Shown piece by piece: positions 358-22,192 of a stretch of DNA of 64,000 nt. Position 1 is the first letter of the stretch; the number at the start of each line of letters is the position of its first letter. This stretch comes from Xanthomonas bonasiae (GTDB lineage: Bacteria; Pseudomonadota; Gammaproteobacteria; Xanthomonadales; Xanthomonadaceae), in the NCBI RefSeq assembly GCF_017163705.1, contig NZ_JAFIWB010000003.1, positions 62,001 to 126,000 of the forward strand, read 5' to 3'. Under the pieces are notes generated by a model. That model did no database searches and had not been told where the DNA came from. It was given only the letters and a program-made list of their open reading frames with translations. Both the position numbers and the translations under genes were made by a program.

Positions 358-385
358 TGAGTGCGTGCAGCGGCAGGAAAGGTTG
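358..385 (-). promoter_or_regulatory. ECF-type promoter motif, site 1
   Basis: Read on the minus strand this is CAACC (385-381), then TTT, and after 15 bases in total CGCAC (365-361) followed by TCA. It matches the bipartite motif found at five other starts in the left third of the window. It points at the truncated gene whose ATG is at 328. Calling it an ECF sigma promoter is inference from motif shape, position and spacing. Confidence 0.5.
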
Positions 386-423
386 CGCGGGTCATGCGCG
401 ACGATGCGCCTGCGCGGCGTGCA

Positions 424-451
424 CAACCAAAGACGGCGCCGGCGGCACTTA
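424..451 (+). promoter_or_regulatory. ECF-type promoter motif, site 2
   Basis: CAACC (424-428), AAA, then GGCAC (444-448) and TTA, with exactly 15 bases between CAACC and GGCAC. It lies 80 bases upstream of the radical SAM start at 531. It has the same spacing as the other five copies; only the AT triplet after CAACC differs (AAA instead of TTT). Confidence 0.5.
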
Positions 452-530
452 CGGCACGGCCACCTGTGCGCGGCCACTGCTGCATGCGCCGCGGCATCCG
501 TTGCCGGCGCCGAACGAGACCCTTCCGCCG

Positions 531-2027
531 ATGCCAAAGATCCAGGTCAGCCACTCCTATTTCCTGCGCTACGACCCCAAGCAATGGGAGCGCGGAAAGC
601 CGTATCCGCCGCTGGCCACGCTGCAGGTGGCCACGCTGCTGCGCCGGCACGGGCACGAGGTGACGCTGTTCGACGCGATGCTGGCCGACGGCGTGGAGGA
701 CTACCAGGGCTCGCTGCGCGCGGCGCAGCCGGACCTGGTGGTGTTCTACGAGGACAACTTCAATTTCCTGACCAAGATGTGCCTGAGCCGGATGCGCGAG
801 GCCGCCTGCCGGATGATCGCCGAGGCGCGTGCCGGCGGCAGCCGGGTGATCGTGGCCGGCTCCGACGCGTCGGACCATCCCGAAGCGTTCCTGGCCGCCG
901 GCGCGCACGCGGTGCTGATCGGCGAAGGCATCGCGCCGCTGCTGGAACTGGTCGAGCGGCTGCAGCGAACGCCCGACATCGATGCCGCGGCCTGGGTGGC
1001 GGACGTGGCCGATGTCGCCACCGCTGCGCTGCCGCAGCTCAAGCGCGCGCAGATCGGCGCGCGGCCGCCGGATCCGCGCCTGTCCGGGCTGGCCGCCTGG
1101 GACCTGGTCGATATCGAGCGCTACCGGCGCCTGTGGCTGCAGCGGCACGGCTATTTCAGCCTGAACATGGCCGCCTCGCGCGGCTGCCCGTTCCGCTGCA
1201 ACTGGTGCGCCAAGCCGATCTGGGGCAACCACTACAAGCGTCGCAGCGCGCCGGAAGTGGCCGCGGAAATGATCCATCTCAAGCGTGCCTTCGCCCCCGA
1301 CCATATCTGGATGGCCGACGACATCTTCGGCTTCCACATCGAGTGGGTGGAAGAATTCGCCGCGGTGCTGGCCGCCGCCGATGGCTCGATCCCGTTCACC
1401 ATCCAGACCCGCGCCGATCTCGGCAGCGAGCGCATGGCCGCCGCGCTGGCCCGCGCCGGCTGCGCGGAAGCGTGGATCGGCGCGGAAAGCGGCAGCCAGC
1501 GCATCCTCGACAAGATGACCAAGGGCACCGCGGTGGAGGACGTGATCGCCGCCCGCCAGCGCCTGGGCGCGCACGGCATCCGTGTCGGTTTCTTCCTGCA
1601 GCTCGGCTACCTGGACGAGCAACTGGACGACATCCTCGCCACCCGTGCGCTGGTGGCGACGGCGCGTCCGGACGACATCGGCGTCAGCGTGTCCTACCCG
1701 CTGCCCGGAACCAAGTTCTACCAGCAGGTGAAGAACCAGCTCGGCCGCAAGACCCATTGGCAGGACAGCGACGACCTGGCGATGATGTTCCATGGCGCCT
1801 ACCACTCGGAGTTCTACCGGCGGGTGCGCGATCTGCTGCACCGGCAGGTGGACCTGCAGCGCAGCGAGGCCACGCGGCCGCCGCAGGACTACGCGCAGGA
1901 CTGGCTGGCACTGGATGCGCAGTGGGACGCATTGATCGCCAGCGAAGGCCGGCACCGGACCGACGCCGCCCTGCCGGCCGCAGCCACTGCCTCCGACCGC
2001 CGCATCCCGCTGGTGCAACGCCAATGA
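531..2027 (+). CDS. radical SAM protein, B12-binding-domain type
   Basis: This 498-residue protein has an N-terminal Rossmann-like half (about 1-200) of the B12-binding type and a radical SAM core whose [4Fe-4S] motif is CPFRCNWC (CxxxCxxC) at about residue 223. The canonical cobalamin-ligating DxHxxG is not visible, so cobalamin binding is uncertain. I chose ATG at 531 because MPKIQVSHSYFLRYDP begins the recognisable domain; the frame is open further upstream but looks non-coding. The stop overlaps the next start (ATGA), so the two genes are probably translationally coupled. Substrate unknown; relatives modify lipids, sugars or natural products. The glycan genes nearby suggest a tailoring role, which is inference. 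Confidence 0.85.
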   Translation: MPKIQVSHSYFLRYDPKQWERGKPYPPLATLQVATLLRRHGHEVTLFDAMLADGVEDYQGSLRAAQPDLVVFYEDNFNFLTKMCLSRMREAACRMIAEARAGGSRVIVAGSDASDHPEAFLAAGAHAVLIGEGIAPLLELVERLQRTPDIDAAAWVADVADVATAALPQLKRAQIGARPPDPRLSGLAAWDLVDIERYRRLWLQRHGYFSLNMAASRGCPFRCNWCAKPIWGNHYKRRSAPEVAAEMIHLKRAFAPDHIWMADDIFGFHIEWVEEFAAVLAAADGSIPFTIQTRADLGSERMAAALARAGCAEAWIGAESGSQRILDKMTKGTAVEDVIAARQRLGAHGIRVGFFLQLGYLDEQLDDILATRALVATARPDDIGVSVSYPLPGTKFYQQVKNQLGRKTHWQDSDDLAMMFHGAYHSEFYRRVRDLLHRQVDLQRSEATRPPQDYAQDWLALDAQWDALIASEGRHRTDAALPAAATASDRRIPLVQRQ

Positions 2028-3304
2028 CCGCGCAGGCGACGCCGCAAGCGCATGCGCCCTCCTCCACCGATCCCTTTGCCGAGCGTGCGACGCAACCTGC
2101 GTTGAAGCATGTCGGCACCGGGTTGCGGCTGGCGACCGAAACCCTGGCGCGCGAGCTGGCGCGGCCGGGCAACGCGATGCCGCAGTGGGACCGGCTGCAA
2201 TGGCAGCTGGCCGCGGCGGCGACCGCCGCGCACGGCATCGGGCCGTTGCTGAGCCGGCTGTCGGTATGGCCCAATCGCGACTGGAGCGCGTTCCTGGCCG
2301 AGCAGCGCGAGCACGTCGCCCACCGCTACCGGCGCATCGCCGCGCTGCTGGAGCGGATCGATGCGCTGGCGCAGGCCGCCGGCGTGGCGATCGTGCCGCT
2401 GAAGGGCGCGGCCTTGCACGCACAGGGCCTGTACCTGCCTGGCGACCGGCCGATGGCCGACATCGACCTGCTGGTGCGCGCCGAAGATGCGGCGCAGGTG
2501 GGTGCGCTGCTGGAAGAGCTCGGCTACGTGGCCGAGTTCGCGCAGTGGAAGCACCAGACCTTCCGCCCCGCGCAGGCGCACTCCGTCGCCAGCCTGGGCG
2601 AGCATCGCGACACGCCGATCAACATCGAGCTGCACCTGCGCATCCAGGAGCGGCTGCCGCTGGCCACGGTCGATATCAGCGAGCGCATATTCCCGCGCGA
2701 CAGCCGCCCGGGGCTAAACCCCTACCCGTCCAACGGCGCGCTGATGAGCCATCTGCTGCTGCATGCGGCCGGCGGCATCTGCAGCCGCAGTCTGCGCTTG
2801 ATGCATCTGCACGATATCTCGTTGCTGGCCACGCGGATGAGCGGCAAGGACTGGCGGGTGCTGTGCGACGCCGCCGATGGCGCGGCGTGGTGGGCGTTGC
2901 CGCCGTTGCAGCTGGTGCTGCGCTATTACCGCACGGCGATTCCGAAGACGGTGCTGGCGCAGCTGCGCGCGCAGTGTCCGCCGCTGCTGCGGCTGGTCGC
3001 GCGGCGGCTGGATCTGACCCGCGCCTCGTGCTCGCAGCTGTGGCTGCCGGCGCTGCCCGGGATCGAGTGGGCGCGCTCGCTCGGCGAGGTCGTACGCTAT
3101 CTGCGGCAGCGGCTGCAGCCTTCGCAGGAAAGCCGACAGGAACGCGCGGACATGATCCGCACCCAGCTGTGGCTGCAGGGCCAATCCTGGGTCGCCCTGC
3201 CGCAGCGTCGGCGCGTGCTGCTGCGCCTGCTGCGGCCGGTGCCGCGCATGGATACGCTGTATGCGGTGCGCAGCGCGCTGCAGGGATATGCGGCGGCGCG
3301 TTGA
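2024..3304 (+). CDS. nucleotidyltransferase family protein (NTP_transf_5 type)
   Basis: A 426-residue protein that starts four bases inside the preceding radical SAM gene. Around residues 125-175 it has PLKGAAL followed by RPMADIDLLV, the DxD-containing core expected of NTP_transf_5 (PF14907) nucleotidyltransferase-fold proteins. Such proteins occur in capsule, exosortase-associated and lasso-peptide loci, often with HprK-like proteins; the exact reaction is generally unknown. The C-terminal half is alpha-helical and Leu/Arg-rich. It is the last gene of a two-gene plus-strand unit, ending just before a strong inverted repeat that separates it from the convergent glycosyltransferase genes. Confidence 0.75.
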   Translation: MTAQATPQAHAPSSTDPFAERATQPALKHVGTGLRLATETLARELARPGNAMPQWDRLQWQLAAAATAAHGIGPLLSRLSVWPNRDWSAFLAEQREHVAHRYRRIAALLERIDALAQAAGVAIVPLKGAALHAQGLYLPGDRPMADIDLLVRAEDAAQVGALLEELGYVAEFAQWKHQTFRPAQAHSVASLGEHRDTPINIELHLRIQERLPLATVDISERIFPRDSRPGLNPYPSNGALMSHLLLHAAGGICSRSLRLMHLHDISLLATRMSGKDWRVLCDAADGAAWWALPPLQLVLRYYRTAIPKTVLAQLRAQCPPLLRLVARRLDLTRASCSQLWLPALPGIEWARSLGEVVRYLRQRLQPSQESRQERADMIRTQLWLQGQSWVALPQRRRVLLRLLRPVPRMDTLYAVRSALQGYAAAR

Positions 3305-3315
3305 GTGATGTAGCT

Positions 3316-3388: not shown

Positions 3389-3400
3389 AAGACGTTATGT

Positions 3401-4507
3401 TCACGCGCGCGCCGGGCACAGCCGGCGGTAGATCGCGCCGAAGCTGCGCACGGTGTGCTCGGCATCCTCGCGCACCGCGCGGCACTGCGCGGACCAGGCC
3501 AGGCGCAGGCGCAGTTCGTCGTCGGCCAGGACCTGGCGCAAGGCTTCGGCCAGGCCGGCCCAGTCGCCGGTCGGCACTGCCAGCGCCGCCGACGGTGCCC
3601 ATTCCAGCAGGTGCCCTACCCCGGTGCCGACGGTGGGCACGCCGGCCACCGCCGCTTCCAGCAGCACCATCGGCCCGGCCTCGTGCAGCGACGACAGCAC
3701 CAGCAGATCGGCGGCCTCCACCAGCGGGCGCAGTTCGCGCTGGGTCTTGAAACCGAGAAAGCGCACCTGCTGCGACAGCCCCAGTTGCGCGACCAGGCGC
3801 TGCATCTCGCCGTCGAGCGTGTCCACGCCGACGATATCGATCCGGAACGCGACCCCGGCACGTGCCAGTGCCGCCAGTGCGCGCAGCAGCGTCGGCTGGT
3901 CCTTGACCCGGTTGAGGCTGGCGACGTGCAACAGTTGCGCCGTGCCGCCACCGCGCCGGCGCGGCGCGCGCTGCGGCCAGGCGCGCAGGTCCACGCCCAG
4001 CGGCACGCGTTCGGCGGCGATGCCCAGCGCCTGCACTGCCTCGACGATCGGCACGCTGGCCGCGGTGACCGCGTCCGCCAGCCGCAGCACCAGCGCCTCG
4101 CGCAGCCGCCCTTGCCATTTGCGCCGTCCGCCATAGCCAATGGCATGCAGCGCAACCAGTTCGCCGCCGGCGATGTGCACCAGGCTCGGCCGCCGCAGCA
4201 AGCGCGCGGCGGCCACCGCGATCAGGCTGCAATGGCCGGAGAAGATCGATTGCACCAGGTCGAACGGCGCCAGGCGATGCTCGGCGCGGATCGCGGCGAC
4301 CGCGCGCAGGCGGGTGCGGCCGTCGCCGATGTTGTGGATGCGCGCGCCGAGCAATTCCCAGCACGCCGGCGTGGGCTCCTGGTGCAGCACGAACACATGC
4401 ACCTCGTGGCTGCGCGCCAGGCGCTCGATCAGGGTCAGCAGCACCGGGATCACCCGGTACTCGCCGCTGCGATCGACTCCGCCGGGCACCACCAGCGCCA
4501 GCTTCAT
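3401..4507 (-). CDS. glycosyltransferase family 4 (second of a pair)
   Basis: A 368-residue GT-B glycosyltransferase. The N-terminal acceptor domain begins MKLALVVPGGVDRSGEYR; the C-terminal donor domain contains a glycosyltransferase group 1 region with the E-x7-E element in HEAGPMVLLEA at about residue 290. GT4 enzymes transfer a sugar from a nucleotide sugar with retention of configuration, normally on the cytoplasmic face during glycan assembly. The start overlaps the end of the upstream glycosyltransferase by four bases. It is the last gene of the minus-strand run and ends just before the inverted repeat. Sugar specificity cannot be read from the sequence. Confidence 0.88.
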   Translation of the reverse strand: MKLALVVPGGVDRSGEYRVIPVLLTLIERLARSHEVHVFVLHQEPTPACWELLGARIHNIGDGRTRLRAVAAIRAEHRLAPFDLVQSIFSGHCSLIAVAAARLLRRPSLVHIAGGELVALHAIGYGGRRKWQGRLREALVLRLADAVTAASVPIVEAVQALGIAAERVPLGVDLRAWPQRAPRRRGGGTAQLLHVASLNRVKDQPTLLRALAALARAGVAFRIDIVGVDTLDGEMQRLVAQLGLSQQVRFLGFKTQRELRPLVEAADLLVLSSLHEAGPMVLLEAAVAGVPTVGTGVGHLLEWAPSAALAVPTGDWAGLAEALRQVLADDELRLRLAWSAQCRAVREDAEHTVRSFGAIYRRLCPARA

Positions 4508-5628
4508 GCGTCGCTCCGCGCGGCTTGCTCCAGCAACTGCGCATAGGCGCGCGACCAGCGCCGGCCCACCGCCGCGAACGACAGCTGCGCATCGAAATGG
4601 GCCCGGACCTGCGCCGGCGACGGCCGTTCGCTGGCGGCATGCACCAGCGCCTCGGCGAGCAGCCCGGCATCGCCGCACGGCCACAGTTCGCCGACGCGGC
4701 CGCAGTCGGTGAGCGCACGGAACGACGGGATGTCGGTCAGCACCGGCAGCGTGCCGCAGGCGAACGCTTCCAGCGCCGCGTAGCCGCAGCTTTCGGCCAG
4801 GCTGCCCGACACGAACAGATCCGCCGCGCGCATCAGCGTCTGCACCTGGGCGTGGTCGACCTTGCCCAGCAGATGCACGCGCCCGCGCAGACGCGAGTCC
4901 CGCTGCACGCGTTGCTCGACCGCTTCCAGCAACGGCGCGCTGCCGAACGCGCAGAACAGCTGCAGTCCGGGCAGCCGCGCGGCGGCGCGGGCCACGCCGT
5001 CGAGCACGGTCAACGGATCCTTGCCGGCGCTCAGGCGCCCTACCCACAGCACGCAGGGCGCGCCATGCAGGCCGCTGTCGCGCCGCGCCTGCGCGCGATC
5101 GCCGGGGGTGAAGCGGCAGCTGGATTCGGGGATCGCGAACAGGCGGGTGGACGGCGCGAACAGACCGGCATGCACGAACGTCCGCGCCAGATCCAGCGAG
5201 GTGAAGGCGATTCCCGCTGCGGCCGCGTACCACTGCCGCCACTGCGAACGGCGCCACCAGCGCGGCGGGCGATTGGCGTGGTCCTGCAGCAGGATCGGCA
5301 CCTGCGGCAACTGCCGCGCCATCGCGCAGGCCTCGCGCGCGAACTCCAGGCCGTGCACGTGGACCACGTCGGCGCCGATCGCGTGCACGATGCCGGCGAT
5401 GCGCCGCGCCCGGCTGCTGGTGCCAGCATTGCCCGGATCGGTGAAGTGATATTCCACGCCGTTGCGCAGCAACTGCTCCGATACGTCGGCGGCCTGGATC
5501 ACCGACACCCGGGTACCGGCGCTGGCCACCGCTTCGGAGATGTCGGCCAGCGACGGCCAGTGCGCGAACACCTGCGCCGGCGCCAGTCCCGGCGGCGTGC
5601 GGACGAAATTGATCTGGGCGACGTGCAT
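4504..5628 (-). CDS. glycosyltransferase family 4 (first of a pair)
   Basis: A 374-residue GT-B protein beginning MHVAQINFVRTPPGLAPAQV, with the donor-domain signature VLWVGRLSAGKDPLTVL at about residue 195 and the E-x7-E element in ESCGYAALEA at about residue 295. It is followed with a four-base ATGA overlap by a second GT4 gene, so both are likely made together and may add consecutive sugars. Upstream is the radical SAM gene, 25 bases away. Probably cytoplasmic or peripheral at the inner membrane; donor and acceptor are unknown. Confidence 0.88.
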   Translation of the reverse strand: MHVAQINFVRTPPGLAPAQVFAHWPSLADISEAVASAGTRVSVIQAADVSEQLLRNGVEYHFTDPGNAGTSSRARRIAGIVHAIGADVVHVHGLEFAREACAMARQLPQVPILLQDHANRPPRWWRRSQWRQWYAAAAGIAFTSLDLARTFVHAGLFAPSTRLFAIPESSCRFTPGDRAQARRDSGLHGAPCVLWVGRLSAGKDPLTVLDGVARAAARLPGLQLFCAFGSAPLLEAVEQRVQRDSRLRGRVHLLGKVDHAQVQTLMRAADLFVSGSLAESCGYAALEAFACGTLPVLTDIPSFRALTDCGRVGELWPCGDAGLLAEALVHAASERPSPAQVRAHFDAQLSFAAVGRRWSRAYAQLLEQAARSDA

Positions 5629-5653
5629 GGGGTTTCCGCTGGGGGGCGACTCG

Positions 5654-7165
5654 CTAGATGCCGGAGACCTGCGGCCGGCGCAGGCGCACCAGCCAATTGG
5701 CCAGGTTCAGTTCCCACGGCCGGTCGTAGCGCCGGTAGCGGTAGCGCCACGCCGCCATCGCGCTCAAGCCGCGCTTGGCCCAGCGCGGCGAGCGCAGGTC
5801 CTGCGCGGTGGGATAGCGGCAGCCCAGCACGGTGACGAAGTCGCGGATGCGCTGGCGCAGCGCGTCGTCGAGCCAGGGCGCGTCGGCATGGCAGGCGTAG
5901 TCCACCCATTGCGGCTGGGTCCATTCCTCGGGCGTGCGCGGGAACACCACCGGCGCGCCGTGCAGGTCGCGCAGCGGCATCGACGCGCGCTTGCCGCGAT
6001 CCTTCTCGTGGCGGCTCGCCTCCGGCAGCGGCGTGTACACGTAGACGATGATTTCCGATTGCGGATTGATCCGCTTGAGCTCGCGGATGAACTCGAAGGT
6101 CTGCTCGGTCTCGTGCACGGTGTCCTGCGGCGGCGCGACCATGAACGACAGTTCCGGGATCACCCCGTTGCGCCGGCACAGCTCGGCCACCTCCAGGGTC
6201 TGGTCGGGGCGCGTGCCCTTGCGGATTTCCTTGAGCATCGCCCCGCTCGGCGATTCGGCGCCGATGTAGGCCATGCGCAGCCGGCTCTTGCGCACCAGCT
6301 TCCAGGTGCTCTCGGACAGGTTGAGCAGCGCGTCGGCGCGCGCATAGCACCACCACGGCATCTCCAGCTTGGCCATGACCTCCAGCAGCGGGATCATCTC
6401 CGCCTCGCGGTCGAAGAAGTTGTGGTCGAAGAACTGAATCGAATCGGCGCCCAGTTCCTCTTTCAGATAGCGCAGCTCGCGTTCCAGCCGCGCCGCGGTA
6501 GGCAGCGCGGTGGCGCCGCCGAACATCGCCGCCACGCCGCAGAAGGTGCAGCGGAAACGGCAGCCCAGCGCGGCCTGGTGCGAAGCGGTGCGGCGGCCGA
6601 GGAAACTGCGGCCGAGATAGTGGCGCGGATCGCCGAGCTTGTCGTACGGCAGCGCCGGCGCCGCCTCGCCGCGGCTGAAACCGCGATTGCGGTTGTGCAC
6701 GATCGCACCGTCCTGTTTCCACGACAGGCCGTCGATCTGCGCCAGGCCGGGGCCTTCGCCGCGCAACGCGGCGACCAGTTCCGGCAGGGTGTCCTCGCCC
6801 TGCGCGCGGATCGCGTAGTCCACGTACGGCGCGCTCAGCGCGGTGTCGGTGTACAGGGTCGGGAAATAGCCGCCCCAGACGATCGGCATGGCCGGGAAGC
6901 GCTCGCGGATCGCGGTGGACAGCGCGATCGACGGCGCGATCTGCGGCCCGCCCATGACGCTGATGCCGACCGCGTCGTAGCGTTGTTGCTGCAACGCCTG
7001 CAGCGCGCTGTCGATGAAGCCGCGATCGACGTTGCCGTCGATGATGCGGCTGTCGCCGCGGCGGTCCAGTGCCGCGGCCAGGTTCAGCAGCGCCAGCGGG
7101 AAGCGGGCGTTGCCGCGCGAGGTGATGGTCGGATTGACCAGCAGCGTGTTCGGTGTGGAAGGCAT
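5654..7165 (-). CDS. radical SAM protein with B12-binding domain
   Basis: A 503-residue protein. Residues about 1-150 form a B12-binding-like Rossmann domain (TLLVNPTITSRGNARFPL, then GISVMGGPQIAPS and VWGGYFPTLYTD). The radical SAM core follows, with CRFRCTFC (CxxxCxxC) at about residue 205. It differs clearly from the radical SAM protein encoded at 531-2027, so the locus has two different enzymes of this class. The ATG at 7165 is the natural start of the Rossmann domain. It sits between a methyltransferase and a GT4 gene in one minus-strand run. Possible roles are methylation, ring chemistry or lipid modification; none can be chosen from sequence alone. Confidence 0.87.
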   Translation of the reverse strand: MPSTPNTLLVNPTITSRGNARFPLALLNLAAALDRRGDSRIIDGNVDRGFIDSALQALQQQRYDAVGISVMGGPQIAPSIALSTAIRERFPAMPIVWGGYFPTLYTDTALSAPYVDYAIRAQGEDTLPELVAALRGEGPGLAQIDGLSWKQDGAIVHNRNRGFSRGEAAPALPYDKLGDPRHYLGRSFLGRRTASHQAALGCRFRCTFCGVAAMFGGATALPTAARLERELRYLKEELGADSIQFFDHNFFDREAEMIPLLEVMAKLEMPWWCYARADALLNLSESTWKLVRKSRLRMAYIGAESPSGAMLKEIRKGTRPDQTLEVAELCRRNGVIPELSFMVAPPQDTVHETEQTFEFIRELKRINPQSEIIVYVYTPLPEASRHEKDRGKRASMPLRDLHGAPVVFPRTPEEWTQPQWVDYACHADAPWLDDALRQRIRDFVTVLGCRYPTAQDLRSPRWAKRGLSAMAAWRYRYRRYDRPWELNLANWLVRLRRPQVSGI

Positions 7166-7188
7166 GGCAGGAGACCGCAGGGCGAGGC

Positions 7189-7887
7189 TCACGGCAGGCG
7201 CCGCAGCCGGAACACCAGCGCCACCGGGACCTGCAGCGCGGCAGGATCGAAGTGCGCGCCGGCGGGAATGTCGGCAGGGTCGAGCATCGGTTCGCGCGCC
7301 GCCTCGATCGCCAGCCCGAGCGCGGCGCAGGCCGCATGCCAGTGGCTGTAGAGGTGCTGGGTATGGCGCACCGCATAGCGCTGGCCAGCGGCCCTGAAAT
7401 CGCGCTTCCAGCCCAGCGCGTGGCCGATCGGGTGCACGTCGCTGCACAGCACGCTGCCGCCCGGGCGGGTGGCGCGGCGCAGTTCGGCCAGCGCCGGCAG
7501 CAGTTGCGGCAGATGCCCGACGACCAGGGCGCAGATGCTCAGGTCGGCGTCGGCATCGGCCACCGGCAGCGCGTCCAGGCTGCCTTCGCACAGGGTGTAG
7601 CGATTGCCGGCGCCGGCCGCATCCAGTTCGCGTGCGGCGCGGCCAAGCATCTGCGGCGACAGGTCCACGCCGGTGGCGTGCGCTGCATGACGCTCCAGCG
7701 CATGCAACAGATAGCGTCCGCTGCCGCAGCCGGCATCGAGCACGCGCTGGCCGTGCAGCGCGGGCGGCAACAGCGCCAGCATGGCGCGCTGCTCGGCCTG
7801 CATCACCGGGTTGTGGGCGTGCGCCGGGTAGCTCGCCGCCCACAACGCATAGGCCTGGACCGGATCCAGGATCGGCACCGCGCTCAT
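7189..7887 (-). CDS. class I SAM-dependent methyltransferase
   Basis: A 232-residue Rossmann methyltransferase with SAM motif I VLDAGCGSGRYLL at about residue 49 and the motif II acidic loop in GVDLSPQML. The post-motif region LSICALVVGHLPQLLPAL fits the methyltransf_11 group. Its start overlaps the stop of the amidohydrolase gene by four bases, so the two are coupled. It probably methylates a small molecule or glycan intermediate, which is inferred from the neighbours. Confidence 0.85.
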   Translation of the reverse strand: MSAVPILDPVQAYALWAASYPAHAHNPVMQAEQRAMLALLPPALHGQRVLDAGCGSGRYLLHALERHAAHATGVDLSPQMLGRAARELDAAGAGNRYTLCEGSLDALPVADADADLSICALVVGHLPQLLPALAELRRATRPGGSVLCSDVHPIGHALGWKRDFRAAGQRYAVRHTQHLYSHWHAACAALGLAIEAAREPMLDPADIPAGAHFDPAALQVPVALVFRLRRLP

Positions 7888-9116: not shown

Positions 9117-9119
9117 CGG

Positions 9120-10045: not shown

Positions 10046-10073
10046 TGAGTGCGGGTGGCGGGCGGTTTGGTTG
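10046..10073 (-). promoter_or_regulatory. ECF-type promoter motif, site 3
   Basis: On the minus strand: CAACC (10073-10069), AAA, then after 15 bases in total CGCAC (10053-10049) and TCA. It lies about 80 bases upstream of the GTG start at 9968, in the only sizeable gap of the minus-strand run. It matches site 1 in the CGCAC-TCA half and site 2 in the AAA triplet. Confidence 0.5.
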
Positions 10074-14336: not shown

Positions 14337-15448
14337 GCCGCCATCGCCTCGAATTCCAGGCAGGCTGCGATCACCTGTTCCACCGCATCCGCGTCCAGGG
14401 TCGGCCCGATCGGCAGGCTCAGCACCTCGCGATGCAACTGCTCGCATAGCGGCAGGCTGAGTCCGCTCAGTGCGGCATAGGCCGGCTGCCGGTGCGGCGG
14501 CTGAGGATAGTGCACCAGGCAGTGGATGCCGCTGGCCAGCAGATGGCGCTGCAGCGCGTCGCGCCGGGCGCAACGCACCACGAACAGATGCCAGGCGTGG
14601 GCCGCATCGTCGGCCACCTGCGGCAACTGCAGCTGCGGATGCACGATGCCTGCGCGGTAGCGCCGCGCCACATCGCGGCGCAGGGCGATGTCGGCATCCA
14701 GGTAGTTCAGCTTGACCCGCAGCAACGCCGCCTGCATTTCGTCCAGGCGCGAGTTCACGCCTTGCACCAGGTGCCGGTACTTGATGTCCGACCCGTAGTT
14801 GCGCAGCATCCGGATCTGCGCGGCCAGCGCGGCATCGTCGGTCGTCACCGCGCCGCCGTCACCGAGCGCGCCCAGGTTCTTGCCGGGGAAGAAACTGAAA
14901 CCGGCGGCGTCGCCGAAACTGCCGGCGTGGCGCCCGTGCCGGCGCGCGCCGTGGGCCTGCGCCGCGTCCTCGATCAGCAGCAGGCCATGCTGTCGCGCCA
15001 GCGTTCGCAGCGCCGCCATGTCCGCCAGCTGGCCGTACAGGTGCACCGCCATTATCGCCCGCGTGCGCGGGCCGATCGCGCGTTCCACGCTGGCTGGGTC
15101 CAGGTTGAAGCTGACCGGATCCGGCTCCACCGGCACCGGCAGCAGCCGGTTCTCGCTGATCGCCAGGAAGCTGGCGATGAAGGTGTTGCCCGGCACGATC
15201 ACCTCGTCGCCGTCGCGCAGCCGGCCCAGTTCGCGGTAGCCGCGCAGGATCAGGGTCAGCGCGTCCATGCCGTTGCCCACGCCGATCGCATGTTCGGTGC
15301 CGCAATAGCCGGCGAATTCGCGCTCGAACGCGTCCAGTTCCGCGCCCAGCACGTACCAGCCCGAGTCGATGACCCGTGCTGCCGCGGCCTTCAGTTCGTC
15401 GGCGTAGCGGGCGTTGAGCGCGCGCAGGTCCAGGAACGGCACGCTCAT
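14333..15448 (-). CDS. DegT/StrS sugar aminotransferase, FdtB-like
   Basis: A 371-residue PLP enzyme of the DegT/DnrJ/EryC1/StrS family. It starts [19 protein letters not shown], and the PLP lysine lies in [14 protein letters not shown] at about residue 185, preceded by [11 protein letters not shown]. Together with the FdtA-like isomerase and the acetyltransferase in the same run, it should aminate dTDP-3-keto-6-deoxyhexose at C3, giving dTDP-Fuc3N or dTDP-Qui3N. The related Xanthomonas campestris protein is WxcK. Galacto versus gluco product cannot be decided here. Confidence 0.85.
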
Positions 15449-16380
15449 CGCAGGTCCCAGGCGTAGAAATCGTGAACCACGCCGCGCGCGCCGAAGCGCT
15501 CCTTCTGCGTGACCAGGCCGTCGTTGAGCACCTGGCCCTGCTGCTCGGTGGAAATGCCGAGGCTGAAGTAGTCGCGCTGCGCGTAGCGGTCTTCGATCAG
15601 CTCGGCCAGCAGCAGACTCAGCGCGTCCACGCGCCGGCCCTGCTCGGAGCAGGCCAGGTACTGGGCGTGCACCACGCGGCCGAAGTCGTACAGCAGCGTG
15701 CCGGCCAGCAGCGTCTCGCCATCACGCACTTCGTACAGCACCAGGTGTTCCGGGAAGCGCCCGCACAACAGGCGCAGTTCCTGCAGGCTGTGGGTGGGCG
15801 TGGCGCCGTGGCGCTGCAGCACCTCGCTCAGCAGCGCATGGAACGGCGCCGGATCGCCGCCGCGCTGCACGCGCAGGCCGGCCTTGCGCGCCTTGCCGAC
15901 CGAGCGCCGCCGTTCGGCGGCGAAGCGCGGCGGCTCGCGCAAGGCGATCGCCGAAGACAGGTCGCGGCGCTGCAGGCGCGCACCGAGCCGATGCAAGGCG
16001 TAAAGATCCTCTTCCGCAGGCGTGGCATGGAACAGGTGCGGCACCGCCTTGTACAGCAGCTCGCGTACGCCGCGGGCGCGGTAATGCGCGGCGATCTGCT
16101 TGAACACGTCCAGCGTCGCCGCCGCGCGCAGGGCATGCGCGGACAGCAGCCCGGCATAGCTCAGCCCGGCATGGCTGACCACGCGCGTGCCGTCGATGTT
16201 GGCCGGGAACGCGGCCACCAGCGTACCGCCGCGTTCGACCAGCAGCGAGGCGTCGACGAAGCGCTCGGCGTGGTAGTCCATGTAGCCGCGCCGGTGCAGC
16301 AGGTTGCCGTTGCGGGATTCGGCGATCAACGCGTCCCAGGCCGGCGCATCCTCGGCGCGATAGGGCCTAACCGAATACAT
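15445..16380 (-). CDS. GNAT/FemAB-like acyltransferase
   Basis: A 311-residue protein with two GNAT-like halves. The N-terminal part ([19 protein letters not shown]) and the C-terminal part ([21 protein letters not shown], then [12 protein letters not shown]) resemble FemAB-type acetyl- or aminoacyltransferases found in polysaccharide loci. It overlaps the upstream beta-propeller gene by 14 bases and the aminotransferase gene by four. It could acylate an amino sugar or an intermediate; the substrate is unknown. Confidence 0.72.
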
Positions 16381-17326
16381 CGCCGCTCTCCTCGCCCGCA
16401 CCCTGCGCAAACGGCGCCATCGCCACGCCGAAGCCGTCGCGGCCCATGTCGTTGCCGTTGTAGAACATCAGCACGCGGTCGCGGTGCCGGATCAGCGCCG
16501 GATAGCACAGCGTGCGCGCGTCCCAGCCGCCGGGCGAGAGCGCCAGGCCGAAGGCGTCGTCGCAACGCTGCCAGTGGCGGCCGTCGTCGCTGCGCGCCAC
16601 ACCGGGGAAATACGCGCCGCCGATGTTGCCGCGGGTGAAGTACATCAGGTAGCCGCCCTGGTGGCGGTACACGCGCGGGCGGCCGATGCGGTATTCGCTG
16701 CCCTGCGGCTGCAGGCACGGCGTGTCCTGGCGCGGGATCGCCTGCAGGTCCTCGGTCTCGGCGTAGCGGATGTGGTAGCGCGGGAACGGCGTGCCGTCGA
16801 TCCATTCCCAATCGTCGCCGACCGCGTACCACAGTCGCCAGCGGCCGTCCTCGTAGCGTGCCGAATGCACCGCGGCGATGGTGCTGCGCCCGGGCGCACG
16901 GTCCAGCAGCGGCGTGTCCTGGCGCCGCTGGAACGTCTCGCCGCCGTCGCTGGACACCGCCAGCCCGGTGAAGGCCAGGAACTTGGCCTTGGCCACGCGC
17001 TGGAAACCGACATAGAACATGTACAGCCCGTCCGGCGCGGCGACCACGTCGCCGAGGATCATGCCGTTGTCGTCGAAGCAGCCGTCGCGGCCGATATCCA
17101 GCACCGGCGTGGCGCTGACCCGCACCACCCGGGTCGGGTCGTCGCCGCGCACGTCGACGTAGCCGATGCGGCTGATCCCGGCGTCGTCGCGGAAGCCGGC
17201 GTAGACGCGGATCAGCTCGGCGTCCAGGCGATGCGGGGTCGGCGTCAACGCCGAATGCCGCATCCAGCCGCCGACGCCGTCGCGTGCGGTGGCGAACGCC
17301 AGGCCGCGTTTGCTCCAGTCGAACAT
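16367..17326 (-). CDS. five-bladed beta-propeller, glycosidase-like protein
   Basis: A 319-residue protein with repeated blade-like patterns (LYMFYVGFQR, WRLWYAVGDDW, YLMYFTRGN, VLMFYNGNDMG), each with the aromatic/asparagine end seen in GH32/43-like beta-propellers. The spacing of the blades suggests five. No signal peptide is seen, so a cytoplasmic location is likely, which is odd for a hydrolase. Homologues of this kind occur in bacterial polysaccharide loci with undefined roles. It lies between the acetyltransferase and GNAT-like genes. Confidence 0.65.
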   Translation of the reverse strand: MFDWSKRGLAFATARDGVGGWMRHSALTPTPHRLDAELIRVYAGFRDDAGISRIGYVDVRGDDPTRVVRVSATPVLDIGRDGCFDDNGMILGDVVAAPDGLYMFYVGFQRVAKAKFLAFTGLAVSSDGGETFQRRQDTPLLDRAPGRSTIAAVHSARYEDGRWRLWYAVGDDWEWIDGTPFPRYHIRYAETEDLQAIPRQDTPCLQPQGSEYRIGRPRVYRHQGGYLMYFTRGNIGGAYFPGVARSDDGRHWQRCDDAFGLALSPGGWDARTLCYPALIRHRDRVLMFYNGNDMGRDGFGVAMAPFAQGAGEESGDVFG

Positions 17327-17330
17327 GGCG

Positions 17331-17996
17331 TCAGAGCGTCACGTCGAAGCTGGACTTGCCGGCCACCGCGCGCGCCGGCGCGCCGACGTAGACCCGGCCC
17401 GGCTCGGTGTCGCGGGTGACCAGCGCGCCGGCGCCGATCACGTTGTCCGCGGCAACCTTGACCCCGTCGCTGAAGGTGGCATTGACCCCGACGAAACTGC
17501 TCTGGCCGATCTCGCAGTAGCCGGAAATCACCGCATGCGAGGCGACGAACACATGGTCGTGGATCACCGTGCGGTGGCCGACGTGGTTGCCGCTCCACAG
17601 GATGCAGTTGTCGCCGATGCGGGTGAACGGCTGCACCACATTGCCTTCGAACACGAAGCAGTTCTCGCCCAGCTGCGCATTGCGCCAGACGAAGGCGTGC
17701 GAACTGACGTAGCTGGCCAGGCGATAGCCGCGGCGCTTGGTGTCGAGGAAGAACCGCGTACGCAGGCGGTTGAGGCCGCTGGCGGGAATCGCCACGAACG
17801 CCTCCACCTCGCCCGGCGGGTACAGCCGCTCCAGCTCCTCGTACGCCACCACCGGCCGTTCGGCCAGGATCGGCGCGGCGATGTAGGCGCGCTCGGCGCT
17901 GAAGGCCAGCACCTCGTAGTCGCTGTCGTGGCTGAAGTACTCGCAGGCGATCTGCGCCAGTTCGCCCGCACCGATGATGACCAGCGGTTTCGCCAT
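17331..17996 (-). CDS. NeuD/PglD-like sugar O- or N-acyltransferase
   Basis: A 221-residue protein with an N-terminal Rossmann-like domain (MAKPLVIIGAGELAQIACEYF) and a C-terminal left-handed beta-helix of hexapeptide repeats (from about residue 105: AQLGENCFVFEGNVVQPF onwards). This is the NeuD/PglD sialic-acid/amino-sugar acyltransferase architecture. The obvious role is N-acetylation of the 3-amino sugar made by the neighbouring FdtA- and FdtB-like enzymes. In X. campestris the acetyltransferase and isomerase are described as one fused WxcM protein; here they are separate. Confidence 0.8.
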   Translation of the reverse strand: MAKPLVIIGAGELAQIACEYFSHDSDYEVLAFSAERAYIAAPILAERPVVAYEELERLYPPGEVEAFVAIPASGLNRLRTRFFLDTKRRGYRLASYVSSHAFVWRNAQLGENCFVFEGNVVQPFTRIGDNCILWSGNHVGHRTVIHDHVFVASHAVISGYCEIGQSSFVGVNATFSDGVKVAADNVIGAGALVTRDTEPGRVYVGAPARAVAGKSSFDVTL

Positions 17997-18000
17997 GGCC

Positions 18001-18417
18001 CTACGCCTCCTGCCTGCGTTCGCCCGCGGCTTCGCGCAGGAACTCGTCGTAGTCGAGGATGTAGTCGGCCGGATCGTAGGCCTGGTCGGCCAGCACCATC
18101 AGCACGCAGTCGGCGCTGAAGTCGTACAGGTCGCGCCACACCATGCTGCCGAGCAGCAGGCCCTGGCAAGGGTCGTCGAGCACCACCTGCACCGGTCCGC
18201 TGCCGTCGTCGAGCAGGAACGATACCGAGCCATGCAGGGCCACCGCCAATTGATTCAGATGGCGGTGCGCGTGCTGGCCGCGGTGCACGCCGTGCTTGGT
18301 GGCGAACAGGTAGTACACGCGCCGGATGTCGAAGGGCACGTCGCGTTGCTGCTCCAGGGCCACGAGCAGACCGCGCTCGTCGCCGTGCGTACGCAACTGG
18401 ATTCGTTCGATTGCCAT
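18001..18417 (-). CDS. sugar 3,4-ketoisomerase, FdtA/WxcM-like
   Basis: A 138-residue cupin. The core RRVYYLFATKHGVHRGQHAHR and NQLAVALHGSVSFLLDDG (about residues 30-75) matches the WxcM/FdtA family (PF05523). The enzyme converts dTDP-4-keto-6-deoxyglucose to the 3-keto isomer for C3 amination. It is the first gene of the upper minus-strand run, and a copy of the ECF-type motif is about 43 bases upstream of its ATG. It is complete for the family. Confidence 0.85.
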   Translation of the reverse strand: MAIERIQLRTHGDERGLLVALEQQRDVPFDIRRVYYLFATKHGVHRGQHAHRHLNQLAVALHGSVSFLLDDGSGPVQVVLDDPCQGLLLGSMVWRDLYDFSADCVLMVLADQAYDPADYILDYDEFLREAAGERRQEA

Positions 18418-18456: not shown

Positions 18457-18484
18457 TGAGTGCCGCCGGCCTGCGGAAAGGTTG
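18457..18484 (-). promoter_or_regulatory. ECF-type promoter motif, site 4
   Basis: On the minus strand: CAACC (18484-18480), TTT, and after 15 bases in total GGCAC (18464-18460) and TCA. It faces the FdtA-like gene. Site 5 lies just to the right on the other strand, so this 250-base gap has two diverging copies and nothing else I can name. Confidence 0.55.
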
Positions 18485-18530: not shown

Positions 18531-18558
18531 CAACCTTTTGCCGCGCCCCCGGCACCCA
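18531..18558 (+). promoter_or_regulatory. ECF-type promoter motif, site 5
   Basis: CAACC (18531-18535), TTT, and after 15 bases in total GGCAC (18551-18555) and CCA. It lies 133 bases upstream of the cytochrome b561-like gene. With site 6 it shares ACGCAACCTTT and CCGGCAC at identical spacing. Confidence 0.55.
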
Positions 18559-18667: not shown

Positions 18668-19273
18668 ATGACTTCATCCACGCAGGCCGACGACGGCACC
18701 TCTCTCTCCGACGCGGCGGCGCATTCGCCACCCGCATCCGCCGCTGCAGGGTTGCCGCGGCCGATGGTGCTGCTGCACTGGCTCACCGTGCTGTGCCTGG
18801 TGCTGGCGGCGGGCCTGATCCTGCTGCGCGAAGAGGTCGAGGGCCGTGCCGTGCGCCAATGGTTGCTGGAGGGACATCGGCATTTCGGCCTGTTCGTGCT
18901 CGGCCTGTTCTTCCTGCGCGTGGCGCTGCGCCTGCGCCTGGGCAAACGCCACGACCCCGATGCCGCCTCGCCGCTGCTGCGTGCGCTTGCCGGGCTCACC
19001 CACGTGGTCATGTACGCGCTGCTGCTGACCCTGCCGGTGCTGGGCTGGGCGCTGAGCCAGTCCATGGGCAAGCCGGTGCATCTGTTCGCCGCCACGCTGC
19101 CGGAACTGGTCGCCCCCGATCCGGATCTGGCCGACACGCTCGGCGCCTGGCACGTGTATGCCGCCTGGGCGCTGCTCGGCCTGATCCTGCTGCATATCGG
19201 GGCCGCGCTATGGCACCACTTCGTGCGCCGCGACGACACCCTGCGGCGAATGCTGCGCTTGCGCCGCGGCTGA
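18668..19273 (+). CDS. cytochrome b561-like membrane protein
   Basis: A 201-residue protein with four predicted membrane helices (about residues 35-52, 75-92, 115-135 and 160-185). Heme-ligand histidines are expected in VLLHWLTVL, EGHRHFGLFVLG, LTHVVMYAL and AWHVYAAWALLGLILLHIG, as in bacterial cytochrome b561. It should exchange electrons between the quinone pool and periplasmic partners. The following gene encodes a heme-bearing outer-membrane porin and the next a soluble cytochrome c, so these three could form a trans-envelope route. ATG at 18668 follows a divergent promoter region. Confidence 0.85.
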   Translation: MTSSTQADDGTSLSDAAAHSPPASAAAGLPRPMVLLHWLTVLCLVLAAGLILLREEVEGRAVRQWLLEGHRHFGLFVLGLFFLRVALRLRLGKRHDPDAASPLLRALAGLTHVVMYALLLTLPVLGWALSQSMGKPVHLFAATLPELVAPDPDLADTLGAWHVYAAWALLGLILLHIGAALWHHFVRRDDTLRRMLRLRRG

Positions 19274-19333
19274 ACCGTGCTTTACGCCCTTCCCTCGTCC
19301 GCCGCCGCGCCGACCCGCTCAAGGACCCATCGC

Positions 19334-20695
19334 ATGCAGACCACCCCGTCCCCTTCTTCCTTCTTCCGTCCCGGCACGCTGCGTGGCGCCGAGCAGGTGC
19401 TGCTGTGGTCCACGCTCGGCTCGCTGTTGCTGCTGGCCAGCCCGCGCGCCGCGGCGGTGCCGGCGTTCGCGCGGCAGACCGGCTCCTCCTGCGCGGACTG
19501 CCACATCGGCGCCTACGGCCCGGCGCTGACCCCGTACGGCATGCGCTTCAAGCTCAACGGCTACACCGACAGCGACGGCAACGGGACCAAGATCCCGGCC
19601 TCGGCGCAACTCACCGGCACCCGCAGCGTGCCGGTGCGCGGCAAGACCAACAACCAGCTCAGCGAGGCCGACCTGTACCTGGCCGGCCGGGTCAGCGACA
19701 ACGTCGGCGGCTACATCAAGGTCTCCAGCACCAACAACGGCAAGGACAAGTTCACCACCAAGCTGGACAACGTGGACCTGCGCTTCGTCGCCAAGACCTT
19801 CAAGCTCGGCGGCAAGGACGCGCTGCTCGGGGTGAGCGTCAACAACAACCCCGGCAGCCAGGATCCGATCGGCGTGCTGCCCAATGCTTCCGGCCTGGGT
19901 CCGGCCTCGGCCTACGCCGGCTCCACCACCCTGCTCAACCAGTCCTCGCTGTCCAACCGGGTGATCGGCACCAGCGTCTACGGCGTCTACGACCGCAACT
20001 GGTACGGCGAGATCGGCACCTACAACGCGCTGCCGGTCTCCACCCAGGACGACCTCGGCTACGCGGTCGGCGGCGACCCGGGCAAGCTCAGCGACACCGG
20101 CTACCTGCGCCTGAGCTACATGAAGGACATGAAGAAGCAGTTCTTCTCCGCCGGCGTGGTCGCGCTGACCACCCATCGCCAGCTGCCGCGCAGTACCGGC
20201 CCGCGCGACGACTTCACCGATCTGGGCTACGACCTGAACTACCAGTTCCTGGGCACCCGCGAGCACATCCTCAAGCTCGGCTACCTCAACATCTACGAGC
20301 GCCGCCGCTACGGCAGCGCGGCGATCGACCCGGCCGACCCCAGCGTGGCCGGGCTGCGCCGCGGCAGCATCCGCGACCAGTCGATCAATCTCAGCTACAC
20401 CTACAAGCAGAGCTACGGCCTGCTGCTGGCGCACTTCATCAATACCGGTTCGGCCGACCCGTTCCGCTACAGCCCGTACGGCACGCCCGACACCACCAGC
20501 AACCTGATCAGCGCCTCCTGGGCGCCGTTCGGCAAGGACGATGCGTTCACCTCGATCGCCAACCTGCGCCTGTCCGCCACCTGGTTCCGTTTCAGCAAGT
20601 TCAACGGCACCACCGGCAACGTGTTCGGCGCCCTGCCGGTGACCCGCCCGCACGACCTGAACCAGTTCTCGCTGGCCTTGAGCCTCGCGTTCTGA
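19334..20695 (+). CDS. Cyc2-like outer-membrane porin-cytochrome fusion
   Basis: A 453-residue protein. Residues 1-41 look like a signal peptide ending in ASPRAAA. Next comes VPAFARQTGSSCADCH with a single CxxCH heme c site at about residue 50, followed by LTPYGMRFKLNGYT. The remaining 380 residues are rich in alternating amphipathic strands and end LNQFSLALSLAF with C-terminal Phe, as for BamA-assembled barrels. An N-terminal FARQTG-x2-CxxCH with a following (F/Y)G-x-x-FK-x-x-GY plus a barrel is the layout of Cyc2, the iron oxidase of Acidithiobacillus and Mariprofundus; Cyc2-like homologues also occur in bacteria not known to oxidise iron. The donor or acceptor here is unknown. Confidence 0.78.
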   Translation: MQTTPSPSSFFRPGTLRGAEQVLLWSTLGSLLLLASPRAAAVPAFARQTGSSCADCHIGAYGPALTPYGMRFKLNGYTDSDGNGTKIPASAQLTGTRSVPVRGKTNNQLSEADLYLAGRVSDNVGGYIKVSSTNNGKDKFTTKLDNVDLRFVAKTFKLGGKDALLGVSVNNNPGSQDPIGVLPNASGLGPASAYAGSTTLLNQSSLSNRVIGTSVYGVYDRNWYGEIGTYNALPVSTQDDLGYAVGGDPGKLSDTGYLRLSYMKDMKKQFFSAGVVALTTHRQLPRSTGPRDDFTDLGYDLNYQFLGTREHILKLGYLNIYERRRYGSAAIDPADPSVAGLRRGSIRDQSINLSYTYKQSYGLLLAHFINTGSADPFRYSPYGTPDTTSNLISASWAPFGKDDAFTSIANLRLSATWFRFSKFNGTTGNVFGALPVTRPHDLNQFSLALSLAF

Positions 20696-20724
20696 GCACA
20701 CCTTTCCCCCCAGTACGGATCGTC

Positions 20725-21123
20725 ATGAAACCAGCCAACGCATTTCCCCTGTGGTGCACCCTGATGGCCAGCCTGCTGCCGCTCGGCGTCGCGCTCGCGC
20801 CCGCCGCGCATGCCGGCGGCGGCCTGCCCGGCGCCGGCGTGTTCGCCACCGAATGCGCCGAATGCCATAGCGCGGCGCCGGGCAAGAACAAGAAGGGCCC
20901 GACCCTGTTCGGCGTGGTCGGGCGCAGCGCCGGCAGCGTGCCCGACTACCGCTACTCGGACGCGATGAAGAAGACCCAGTGGACCTGGAGCGACGACAAG
21001 CTGCGCAGCTACCTGGCCCAGCCCGCGTCCAAGGGCATCCCCGGCGCCAACATGAAGTACGACGGGCTCGACGACAGCAAGCAGCTCAAGGACCTCATCG
21101 CCTATCTCAATACCCTGCATTGA
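20725..21123 (+). CDS. periplasmic class I cytochrome c
   Basis: A 132-residue protein with a signal peptide (cut near APAAHA) and one heme site CAECH at about residue 50. The distal ligand is probably the Met in GANMKYDGL at about residue 110. Size and motif FGVVGRSAG with DDKLRSYLAQP fit the c2/c550 family. It follows the porin-cytochrome by 29 bases and is probably its periplasmic electron partner. A strong hairpin lies 34 bases after the stop. Confidence 0.88.
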   Translation: MKPANAFPLWCTLMASLLPLGVALAPAAHAGGGLPGAGVFATECAECHSAAPGKNKKGPTLFGVVGRSAGSVPDYRYSDAMKKTQWTWSDDKLRSYLAQPASKGIPGANMKYDGLDDSKQLKDLIAYLNTLH

Positions 21124-21157
21124 AGTCGGCGCCCGGCCCCGGCATAGTCGAAACTGA

Positions 21158-21178
21158 ACCCGGCGTCCGACGCCGGGT
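21158..21178 (+). terminator. hairpin after cytochrome c gene
   Basis: ACCCGGCGT and ACGCCGGGT form a perfect 9-base stem around CCG, 34 bases after the cytochrome c stop. There is no T-run, so it could be a weak or Rho-assisted terminator or an mRNA-stabilising hairpin. It marks the likely end of the b561/porin-cytochrome/cytochrome c unit. Confidence 0.5.
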
Positions 21179-21412
21179 GTGCGCCGTGTCGCCGCCAGTC
21201 CGCAACGCCGATAATGGCGAGCGTCCACGCGGCGAGCGCTCCGGCGTTGCCGCTGCCACGCGCCCCAGCGTCCCCTGCGATCCGACCCGCGACCATCGAG
21301 CGACCGTGCACAACCGCCCTTCCGCCGCCGGCTCCCTGTCCCCGACCGCCCTGCCCGCGACCGACATGGGCCGCCGCCGCGGACACCGCCATGCATGGGC
21401 ATCCCGACCGGC

Positions 21413-22156
21413 ATGACCGCGGCCGCAGGTGACCTGGCGCAGCGTGCCGCGCGCCAGCGCCCGCTGCGCGGCACGCTGGCGCTGGCGGCGGCGCTGTGCC
21501 TGCCGGGCACGGCGCTGGCGGCCAAGCTGGGCGGCGCGGTCGGGCTCAGTTCGCAATTGGTCGATCGCGGCATCGCGGTGACCGCCGACACCCCGTCCCT
21601 GCAGCTCGCCGGCTACTGGCTGCCCGCGCCGGGCTGGTCGCTGGGCGCGTCCGCCAGTACCGCGCTGGACGCGCCGGGCCACCAGTTGCTGACCACGATC
21701 GAGCTGTCGCGCAGCTGGACCCTGTCCGACAGCTGGCAGATGCAGGCCGGGCTGCTGCGCTACGACTACCCCGGCAACCGCATCAACCGCCTGTTCAACC
21801 GCAACGAGGCCAGCCTCGGCTGGTCCTACCGGGACCGGCTGAGCGTGTCGCTGGCCGCGTTCGAGCTGCCCGACAGCTACCGCGGCCGCTGGTACGGCGC
21901 GGCCGACCTCACCGTGCACCAGCCGCTGCCGGGGCAGCTGTCGCTGTCGGCCGGGATCGGCATCAGCCAGGCCCCGCCGGCGCTGTACGGGCTGGACTAC
22001 GCCGACCACTACAGCTACGGCCACGCCGGGCTGATGTGGAACGCCGGCGCCTGGAGCGTGGAGGTCGACCGCGTGTTCAGCGACGCGCGCAGCATCTACG
22101 CCAGGCGCGGCAACGGGATCTGGCCGTGGGTGGTCACCGTGTCGCGCGCCTTCTGA
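21413..22156 (+). CDS. TorF/Gcw_chp-like putative outer-membrane porin
   Basis: A 247-residue protein with an N-terminal signal peptide (LALAAALCLPGTALAA) and many amphipathic beta strands, ending VVTVSRAF with C-terminal Phe. The start of the mature region, KLGGAVGLSSQLVDRGIAVTADTPSLQ, fits the TorF family (TIGR02001/Gcw_chp), uncharacterised barrel proteins. ATG at 21395 is an alternative start; neither has a clear ribosome-binding site. It is followed by the ECF sigma gene after 64 bases that contain promoter site 6. Confidence 0.7.
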   Translation: MTAAAGDLAQRAARQRPLRGTLALAAALCLPGTALAAKLGGAVGLSSQLVDRGIAVTADTPSLQLAGYWLPAPGWSLGASASTALDAPGHQLLTTIELSRSWTLSDSWQMQAGLLRYDYPGNRINRLFNRNEASLGWSYRDRLSVSLAAFELPDSYRGRWYGAADLTVHQPLPGQLSLSAGIGISQAPPALYGLDYADHYSYGHAGLMWNAGAWSVEVDRVFSDARSIYARRGNGIWPWVVTVSRAF

Positions 22157-22164
22157 TCCGCACG

Positions 22165-22192
22165 CAACCTTTCCGTGCCGACCCGGCACATA
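22165..22192 (+). promoter_or_regulatory. ECF-type promoter motif, site 6 (in front of sigma gene)
   Basis: CAACC (22165-22169), TTT, and after 15 bases in total GGCAC (22185-22189) and ATA, 32 bases before the ATG of the sigma gene. Self-regulation is usual for ECF sigma factors and is the main reason to link the motif to this sigma factor. Confidence 0.55.

Follow-up and report, generated by a model that had tools for sequence, protein, structure and literature searches.

Proteases of the DegS and PrsW types are tied to the release of membrane-bound anti-sigma factors. Among the described extracytoplasmic function (ECF) sigma factors, HrpL has type III secretion genes as its targets, and its promoter, the hrp box, reads GGAACCNA-N13-14-CCACNNA in one printed form, the same paper giving another form as well (PMC10384996). 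The ECF26 sigma factors of Sinorhizobium meliloti are RpoE1, 3, 4, and 6; a sigma gene is followed by that of its anti-sigma factor, as it is here, and RpoE6 has a divergent serine protease gene (PMC6180224). On the side of electron transfer, Cyc2 is described as having an N-terminal heme domain in a barrel (PMC5566968), and Cyc2 homologs are reported in Rhodanobacteraceae (PMC10654088). Here, we compare with these systems a gene island of Xanthomonas bonasiae found in a stretch of 64,000 nucleotides (contig NZ_JAFIWB010000003.1, positions 62,001 to 126,000; referred to below as the window), in which six copies of one bipartite motif precede genes for an ECF sigma factor, a kinase, glycan synthesis, and electron carriers.

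From the sequence, we infer that the six sites are promoters, with CAACC plus a 3-bp run of A or T as the -35 element and SGYACNYA as the -10 element at fixed spacing, and that the ECF sigma factor encoded at 22221-22808 would direct RNA polymerase to them. This factor would drive its own sigma/anti-sigma/subtilase operon, a module of cytochrome b561, porin-cytochrome, and cytochrome c, an HprK-like kinase gene, and three glycan transcription units, with the regulon confined to the island. The sigma factor would be held by a membrane anti-sigma factor with a zinc motif and probably freed by a cut in the periplasm, for which the neighboring lipoprotein subtilase is the likeliest first protease. 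The purpose would be the joint production of a conduit for electrons in the outer membrane and of a surface glycan that matches it. Taken as a whole, we regard this explanation as highly probable.

Six sites and their conservation

A search of both strands of the window finds the motif CAACC-WWW-N12-SGCAC-N-YA exactly six times, each copy being 28 nt long and on the sense strand of the gene that follows (distances run from the motif end to the start codon).

358-385, minus strand: site 1, CAACCTTT type, 29 nt before the HprK-like kinase gene (start 328), which runs off the window
424-451, plus strand: site 2, CAACCAAA type, 79 nt before a B12-binding radical SAM gene (start 531)
10046-10073, minus strand: site 3, CAACCAAA type, 77 nt before the methyltransferase-to-glycosyltransferase operon (start 9968)
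18457-18484, minus strand: site 4, CAACCTTT type, 39 nt before fdtA (start 18417)
18531-18558, plus strand: site 5, CAACCTTT type, 109 nt before the b561 gene (start 18668)
22165-22192, plus strand: site 6, CAACCTTT type, 28 nt before the ECF sigma gene itself (start 22221), suggesting autoregulation

These are the six places named in a preliminary description of this DNA, which had put them 33 to 133 bases from the start codons; the distances found here, 28 to 109 nt, reflect a small difference in counting that leaves the sites themselves in place. All six are intergenic by our gene calls, as had been claimed, although purely mechanical open frames do cross them. The strict motif occurs six times in the whole genome (5,383,649 bases in 89 contigs), always at this locus and upstream of genes, and the reversed, uncomplemented control pattern does not occur at all. 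Random scatter through coding DNA, which the preliminary description had named as fatal to its proposal, was thus not seen. Neither omitting WWW from the pattern nor shortening it to the core AACC-N15-SGCAC added a match in the window. A wider regulon was considered and rejected: with up to two mismatches allowed, the genome yields 44 further matches, all with two mismatches and none with one, versus 55 for the control, so that the family of sites has no hidden tail and stops at six.

The proposed comparison of upstream regions in related genomes showed that orthologous genes of seven named genera retain the sites. A scan of named genomes gave 75 loci, of which 69 (L061-L129, 67-90% identity) were kept and six (L130-L135, 27-33%) were dropped; the 69 come from Xanthomonas, Dyella, Rhodanobacter, Pinirhizobacter, Luteibacter, Frateuria, and Lysobacter and from metagenome-assembled genomes (MAGs) of their families. 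Counting sites within about 300 nt upstream and skipping genes too near a locus end, a site precedes 52 of 53 b561 genes, 58 of 62 fdtA genes, 9 of 10 methyltransferase genes, and 52 of 69 sigma genes, whereas the control genes of the same loci have none (S8, 0/69; DegT, 0/61; Wzz, 0/16). Of the 17 sigma genes scored as lacking a strict near site, 16 have a near copy that differs at one or two positions, and the other (L108) has an exact site 370 nt upstream. GGTAC replaces GGCAC in 13 of the 17, as the sole change in 11 and together with TTC for TTT in L099 and L116; one other base is changed in each of L061 and L109, and two are changed in L104.

When TTT, AAA, or TTC is combined with GYAC, the 69 loci contain 170 sites, compared with none for the reversed control, and 159 of these precede a sigma, fdtA, b561, methyltransferase, or radical SAM gene. 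Two of the remaining 11 lie barely beyond the distance limit or at a locus edge, and we read the 11 as the same positions with the gene replaced, lost, or off the locus. A looser upstream search of these loci gave six matches before the cytochrome c gene, four before the TorF-like gene, three before the cytochrome c assembly gene, and one each before the anti-sigma gene and the gene for the 453-residue porin-cytochrome. The last of these, with TTT, probably corresponds to the site at 7308 of L112, a locus in which no b561 gene turned up; the other matches off the usual slots have no T or A run, and we take them to be chance. The spacer drifts between genera while the boxes stay. Among 156 sites with CAACC and G[CT]AC, distinct within each gene and excluding 36 matches outside these genes that mostly have no T/A run, the final A, which this pattern leaves unfixed, is kept in 155 and the three T positions in 145, 146, and 131, with the middle of the spacer near random.

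The triplet deserves separate comment. In 17 genomes of the genus, WWW is TTT (61) or AAA (32) in all 93 strict sites and never mixed, AAA marking the radical SAM and methyltransferase sites and TTT the other placeable ones. The direction of the run is kept site by site, the window having CAACCAAA at sites 2 and 3 and CAACCTTT at the other four. The methyltransferase site is AAA in seven of nine named loci (three Xanthomonas, two Rhodanobacter, one Luteibacter, and one Lysobacterales MAG), GCA in Frateuria, and AAT in a MAG, and two Dyella loci carry an AAA site at an apparently equivalent position at the locus edge. Since TTC occurs in 16 of 176 sites of three TTT-type genes and AAT once, the TTT/AAA rule is not absolute outside the genus. 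What matters seems to be a run of A or T, whichever its direction, and the site-wise constancy of CAACCAAA and CAACCTTT perhaps stems from A-tract shape or promoter strength.

Sigma factor and motif also occur together. In the genus, 17 of 20 genomes encode the sigma factor (E up to 1e-50) and the same 17 hold the motif, the other three having neither; in the sister genus, the sigma factor is found in 34 of 35 genomes and the same 34 match a looser pattern that also yields control matches, with neither in the remaining genome (G165). The two are therefore jointly present or absent in all 55 genomes of these Xanthomonas-type genera (20 by the strict pattern, 35 by the looser one), the sigma factor being present in 51. 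Many of these genomes are also among the named loci (G157 is L064, for example), and the two sets are not independent; among the matches listed, some genomes of the sister genus show five sites, not six. Across 149 genomes of the family, the 10 with a sigma factor of at least 80% identity carry five or six strict sites each, and the other 139 hold six stray single matches, which is at chance level (control, nine in 149). The island seems to come and go mostly as one block. One genome, G156 (L198), has a strict site at C1:2848479-2848506 on the minus strand, 1.28 Mb from its island and about 0.8 kb upstream of what we read as an apparent isopentenyl transferase gene; it could be chance.

The preliminary description had the sigma factor driving both the glycan genes and the b561/porin-cytochrome/cytochrome c genes. 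Conservation of the sites at orthologous genes, the drifting spacer, and the joint occurrence of sigma factor and motif lend this proposal good support, and on such comparative grounds we consider a regulatory role of the sites well supported.

The sigma factor and its anti-sigma factor

The sigma factor has the ECF (group IV) layout, with regions 2 and 4 in 201 residues as scanned from 22203, and scores 68.9 bits with TIGR02937 (cut-off, 42.9). The adjacent anti-sigma gene expected of this class is present as an overlapping gene, its product matching NF052375 with 33 bits, under the cut-off of 100. The recognition helix, GT[IV]KARLF, is invariant across 70 sigma factors except for the I/V alternation.

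The hrp box, with AACC, 15-16 nt, and [CG]CACNNA, resembles the local AACC-N16-GCACNYA layout, and the ACNNA of the HrpL -10 element recurs at hrp-box spacing within GCACNYA at all six local sites (PMC10384996). Membership in the HrpL group was nevertheless set aside, since the local -35 element is CAACC at all six sites and not GGAACC. The -10 elements differ as well, being CCAC for HrpL and GCAC or GTAC here, as do the targets, which here are a glycan cluster and electron carriers, and an HrpL model is not among the matches listed (25 of 72 NCBIfam matches). Likewise, membership in ECF26 was set aside because an S. meliloti-like promoter is absent; in this comparison by eye, mapped promoters of about GGGAATAA then CGTCT stand against the local CAACCTTT then GGCAC (PMC6180224). 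Judged by title or abstract start, none of the open-library papers listed concerns this sigma factor or motif, or control of such porin-cytochrome modules by this sigma factor.

Like the membrane anti-sigma factors of regulated proteolysis, the anti-sigma factor has an N-terminal domain of the zinc type, a single predicted membrane span, and a domain in the periplasm, but this last domain resembles a subtilase prodomain and the neighboring protease is a subtilase, not one of the DegS or PrsW type. Over 56-57 columns, the profile of the C-terminal periplasmic domain, about 75 residues long, is collinear with the neighboring subtilase's N-terminal domain; the match probability is 50% (score, 27.4) and 69% (31.2) when distant members are included, and a third build gave 60%. 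The highest scores from shuffled columns were 19.0 among 60 shuffles and 16.7 among 100, and seven other profiles scored at most 17.2 with the anti-sigma domain. Prodomains of divergent subtilases did not match this domain, scoring 11.8 and 14.0; taken by themselves, the distant anti-sigma domains matched the closer prodomains weakly (21.6; probability, 9.5%). With E values up to 1 allowed, PF22148, the Fervidolysin N-terminal prodomain, matched seven of the 26 anti-sigma domains (the best at 7.8e-4) and did not match the one in the window or a longer piece of it; neither the anti-sigma periplasmic domain nor the S8 prodomain gave a convincing match to a solved structure.

In the subtilase, the catalytic residues D201, H234, and S384 are invariant in 44 aligned sequences (Pfam, 8.5e-33), and a signal peptide that is lipobox-like by eye is present, its cysteine missing in some orthologs (e.g., L062). 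A class-wide search of 274 genomes yielded 11 further matches to the anti-sigma factor, spread over 10 other genomes. With frames taken unrefined from the first start codon, a subtilase adjoins or overlaps the anti-sigma frame at seven of these places; at two of the other four the contig ends close by, and two have no subtilase within the stretch taken. The presence of a prodomain-like anti-sigma factor beside a subtilase suggests proteolytic release, in which the subtilase would act on the anti-sigma factor. No paper on an anti-sigma/subtilase pairing of the prodomain kind was found in the open-library literature.

Genes of the island and the exchanged conduit

The genes of the island are listed below; operon status was assigned from spacing and strand, and "polymerase" and, further on, "cytochrome c maturation" are our own labels.

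531-3304, plus strand: B12 radical SAM protein and NTP_transf_5 nucleotidyltransferase
3401-9968, minus strand: glycan operon with two methyltransferases, amidohydrolase, B12 radical SAM protein, and two glycosyltransferases
10107-18417, minus strand: glycan operon with FdtA, hexapeptide transferase, an unnamed protein, GNAT, DegT aminotransferase, flippase, GT2, putative polymerase, and Wzz
18668-19273, plus strand: cytochrome b561
19334-20695, plus strand: fused monoheme cytochrome-porin (the 453-residue protein), Cyc2-like by architecture, with CXXCH at residue 53 and then a barrel-like-looking part
20764-21123, plus strand: soluble cytochrome c
21395-22156, plus strand: TorF/gcw_chp-type outer-membrane protein (35.3 bits, under the cut-off of 47.15)
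22221-22808, plus strand: ECF sigma factor (Pfam Sigma70_r2 and Sigma70_r4_2), start set using ortholog N termini
22805-23449, plus strand: anti-sigma factor with an HX3CX2C zinc motif, one predicted membrane span, and a periplasmic subtilase-prodomain-like domain
23446-24777, plus strand: subtilase (Peptidase_S8), candidate site-1 protease, with a lipobox-like signal peptide and an N-terminal prodomain

The TorF-like, sigma, anti-sigma, and subtilase genes stand together in all 69 ortholog loci. The b561/453-residue/cytochrome c set is wholly missing in 14 of them (L095, L096, L101, L104, L113, L115, and L118-L125) and partly detected in L109 and L112. The 453-residue protein contains exactly one CXXCH in all 55 orthologs (CADCH in 53) and matched nothing in Pfam or PDB; its single N-terminal CXXCH, placed after a signal peptide and followed by a barrel-like-looking part, recalls the published description of Cyc2 (PMC5566968). 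A frame with ten CXXCH motifs occurs in seven of the 69 loci, all seven belonging to the 14 that lack the set. In three Rhodanobacter loci (L096, L113, and L123), a decaheme cytochrome gene occupies the slot divergent from fdtA and is followed by a gene for an MtrB_PioB porin (2.4e-75, 4.7e-70, and 6.5e-69), so that the components of MtrAB/PioAB conduits are found in the same slot. A CAACCTTT site precedes the decaheme gene in these three loci, in L096 without the last A. The decaheme/porin pair of a Dyella locus (L104) is on the other strand and has no matching site, and in L122, L124, and L125 the ten-CXXCH frame lies downstream of the subtilase gene, also without a site. The promoter is thus present at three of the seven loci.

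A further idea, which we offer tentatively and would not yet favor, is that the ECF island couples the glycan to an interchangeable conduit (Cyc2-like or MtrAB), with the anti-sigma factor sensing through a mimic of the subtilase prodomain. The subtilase would be checked by, or drawn to, this decoy and would cut it when envelope or redox conditions change.

As for the other genes, the HprK-like kinase, read from the neighboring stretch, matches Hpr_kinase_C at 2.5e-7 (30.9 bits, slightly under the cut-off of 33.3), and its gene is followed, left of the window, by that of an ABC transporter. Of the later cytochrome c maturation genes, the one that was scanned (24789-25589) matches Cytochrom_C_asm. 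The flippase (13083-14336) scores 276.6 bits with the model of the lipid III flippase WzxE (cut-off, 325), and the glycan may accordingly be related to enterobacterial common antigen. Left of the island lie genes for a TraX-family protein (7.9e-50) and a MarR regulator (L203:15421-16730). Left of the window, at about 48.2-50.3 kb of contig C33 of genome G000 (L203:5740-7826), a patatin-like phospholipase gene adjoins a DncV-like nucleotidyltransferase gene, a CBASS-type anti-phage pair by PADLOC matches.

Alternative explanations and implications

The sites might be ECF-class promoters read by another sigma factor, of which the local one is merely one target, and the genome does hold at least one further ECF-like sigma factor (31% identity). 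However, a sigma factor of 31% identity remains in genome G111, which lacks the one described here, and the motif is absent there, although two target proteins are missing as well. Moreover, several distant relatives of the local sigma factor have an element of the same spacing upstream of themselves, TTGAACC then GGYA, and we consider control by another sigma factor improbable. That the sites are operators of a DNA-binding regulator and not promoters would agree equally with well-conserved repeated sites before co-regulated genes, and a MarR-type regulator gene indeed lies just left of the island. Yet the motif lacks symmetry, is directed toward the gene in six of six cases, keeps a nearly constant spacing, and has its end 28-109 nt from the start codon, and no one-component or response-regulator gene was seen among the scanned island proteins, which do not include all small ones; an operator function is therefore very unlikely. 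Hardly any credence can be given to the idea that the sites have no function and arose by chance or descend from one duplicated upstream region. Two gene pairs are divergent, so that sites could be copies, but there is no other strict site in 5.38 Mb, and the boxes are kept although the spacers vary from site to site and drift from genus to genus, a conservation that contradicts this explanation.

Several observations weigh against, or limit the support for, promoters read by the local sigma factor. The pattern [CG]AACC-N16-G[CT]A is found in the 200 nt upstream of 9 of 20 distant sigma genes (200 dinucleotide shuffles averaged 0.2 and never exceeded 2), but G was allowed after 13 of the 20 regions had been viewed, the spacing and GYA being taken from the window. 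All nine occurrences of the GAACC form are among those 13 regions and none among the seven added, leaving 11 of 20 without it. No strict site was found at the six most distant loci or with sigma relatives of 38-45% identity across the family, and among the fdtA orthologs, L096 has no site and L104, L106, and L107 have a spacer one base longer. The four sigma-less genomes also lack the 453-residue protein and the first radical SAM protein, so that co-occurrence alone cannot separate regulation from linkage. Finally, G177 and G178 retain sigma factor, anti-sigma factor, subtilase, and the sigma gene's own site, while the cluster is reduced to remnants (L201 and L202), namely, a 96-residue fragment of the 453-residue gene in G177 and a 47-residue match to a 319-residue protein in G178; the sigma factor may thus have other uses. 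The upstream elements of the distant relatives nevertheless fit an autoregulatory promoter common to the nearer relatives of this sigma factor, of which CAACC would be the local form.

In summary, the system would appear to be that of an ECF sigma factor owning one island, with an hrp-box-like promoter layout, an interchangeable conduit, and possibly an anti-sigma factor of the prodomain type. The promoter code that it offers can be tested, and none of the open-library papers listed treats its sigma factor by title or abstract start. The conduit swap behind the same kind of promoter suggests that the sigma factor controls electron transfer and not one particular protein. To our knowledge, Xanthomonas-type bacteria are not usually thought to use outer-membrane electron transfer; the island would tie a surface glycan to just this process in these bacteria.

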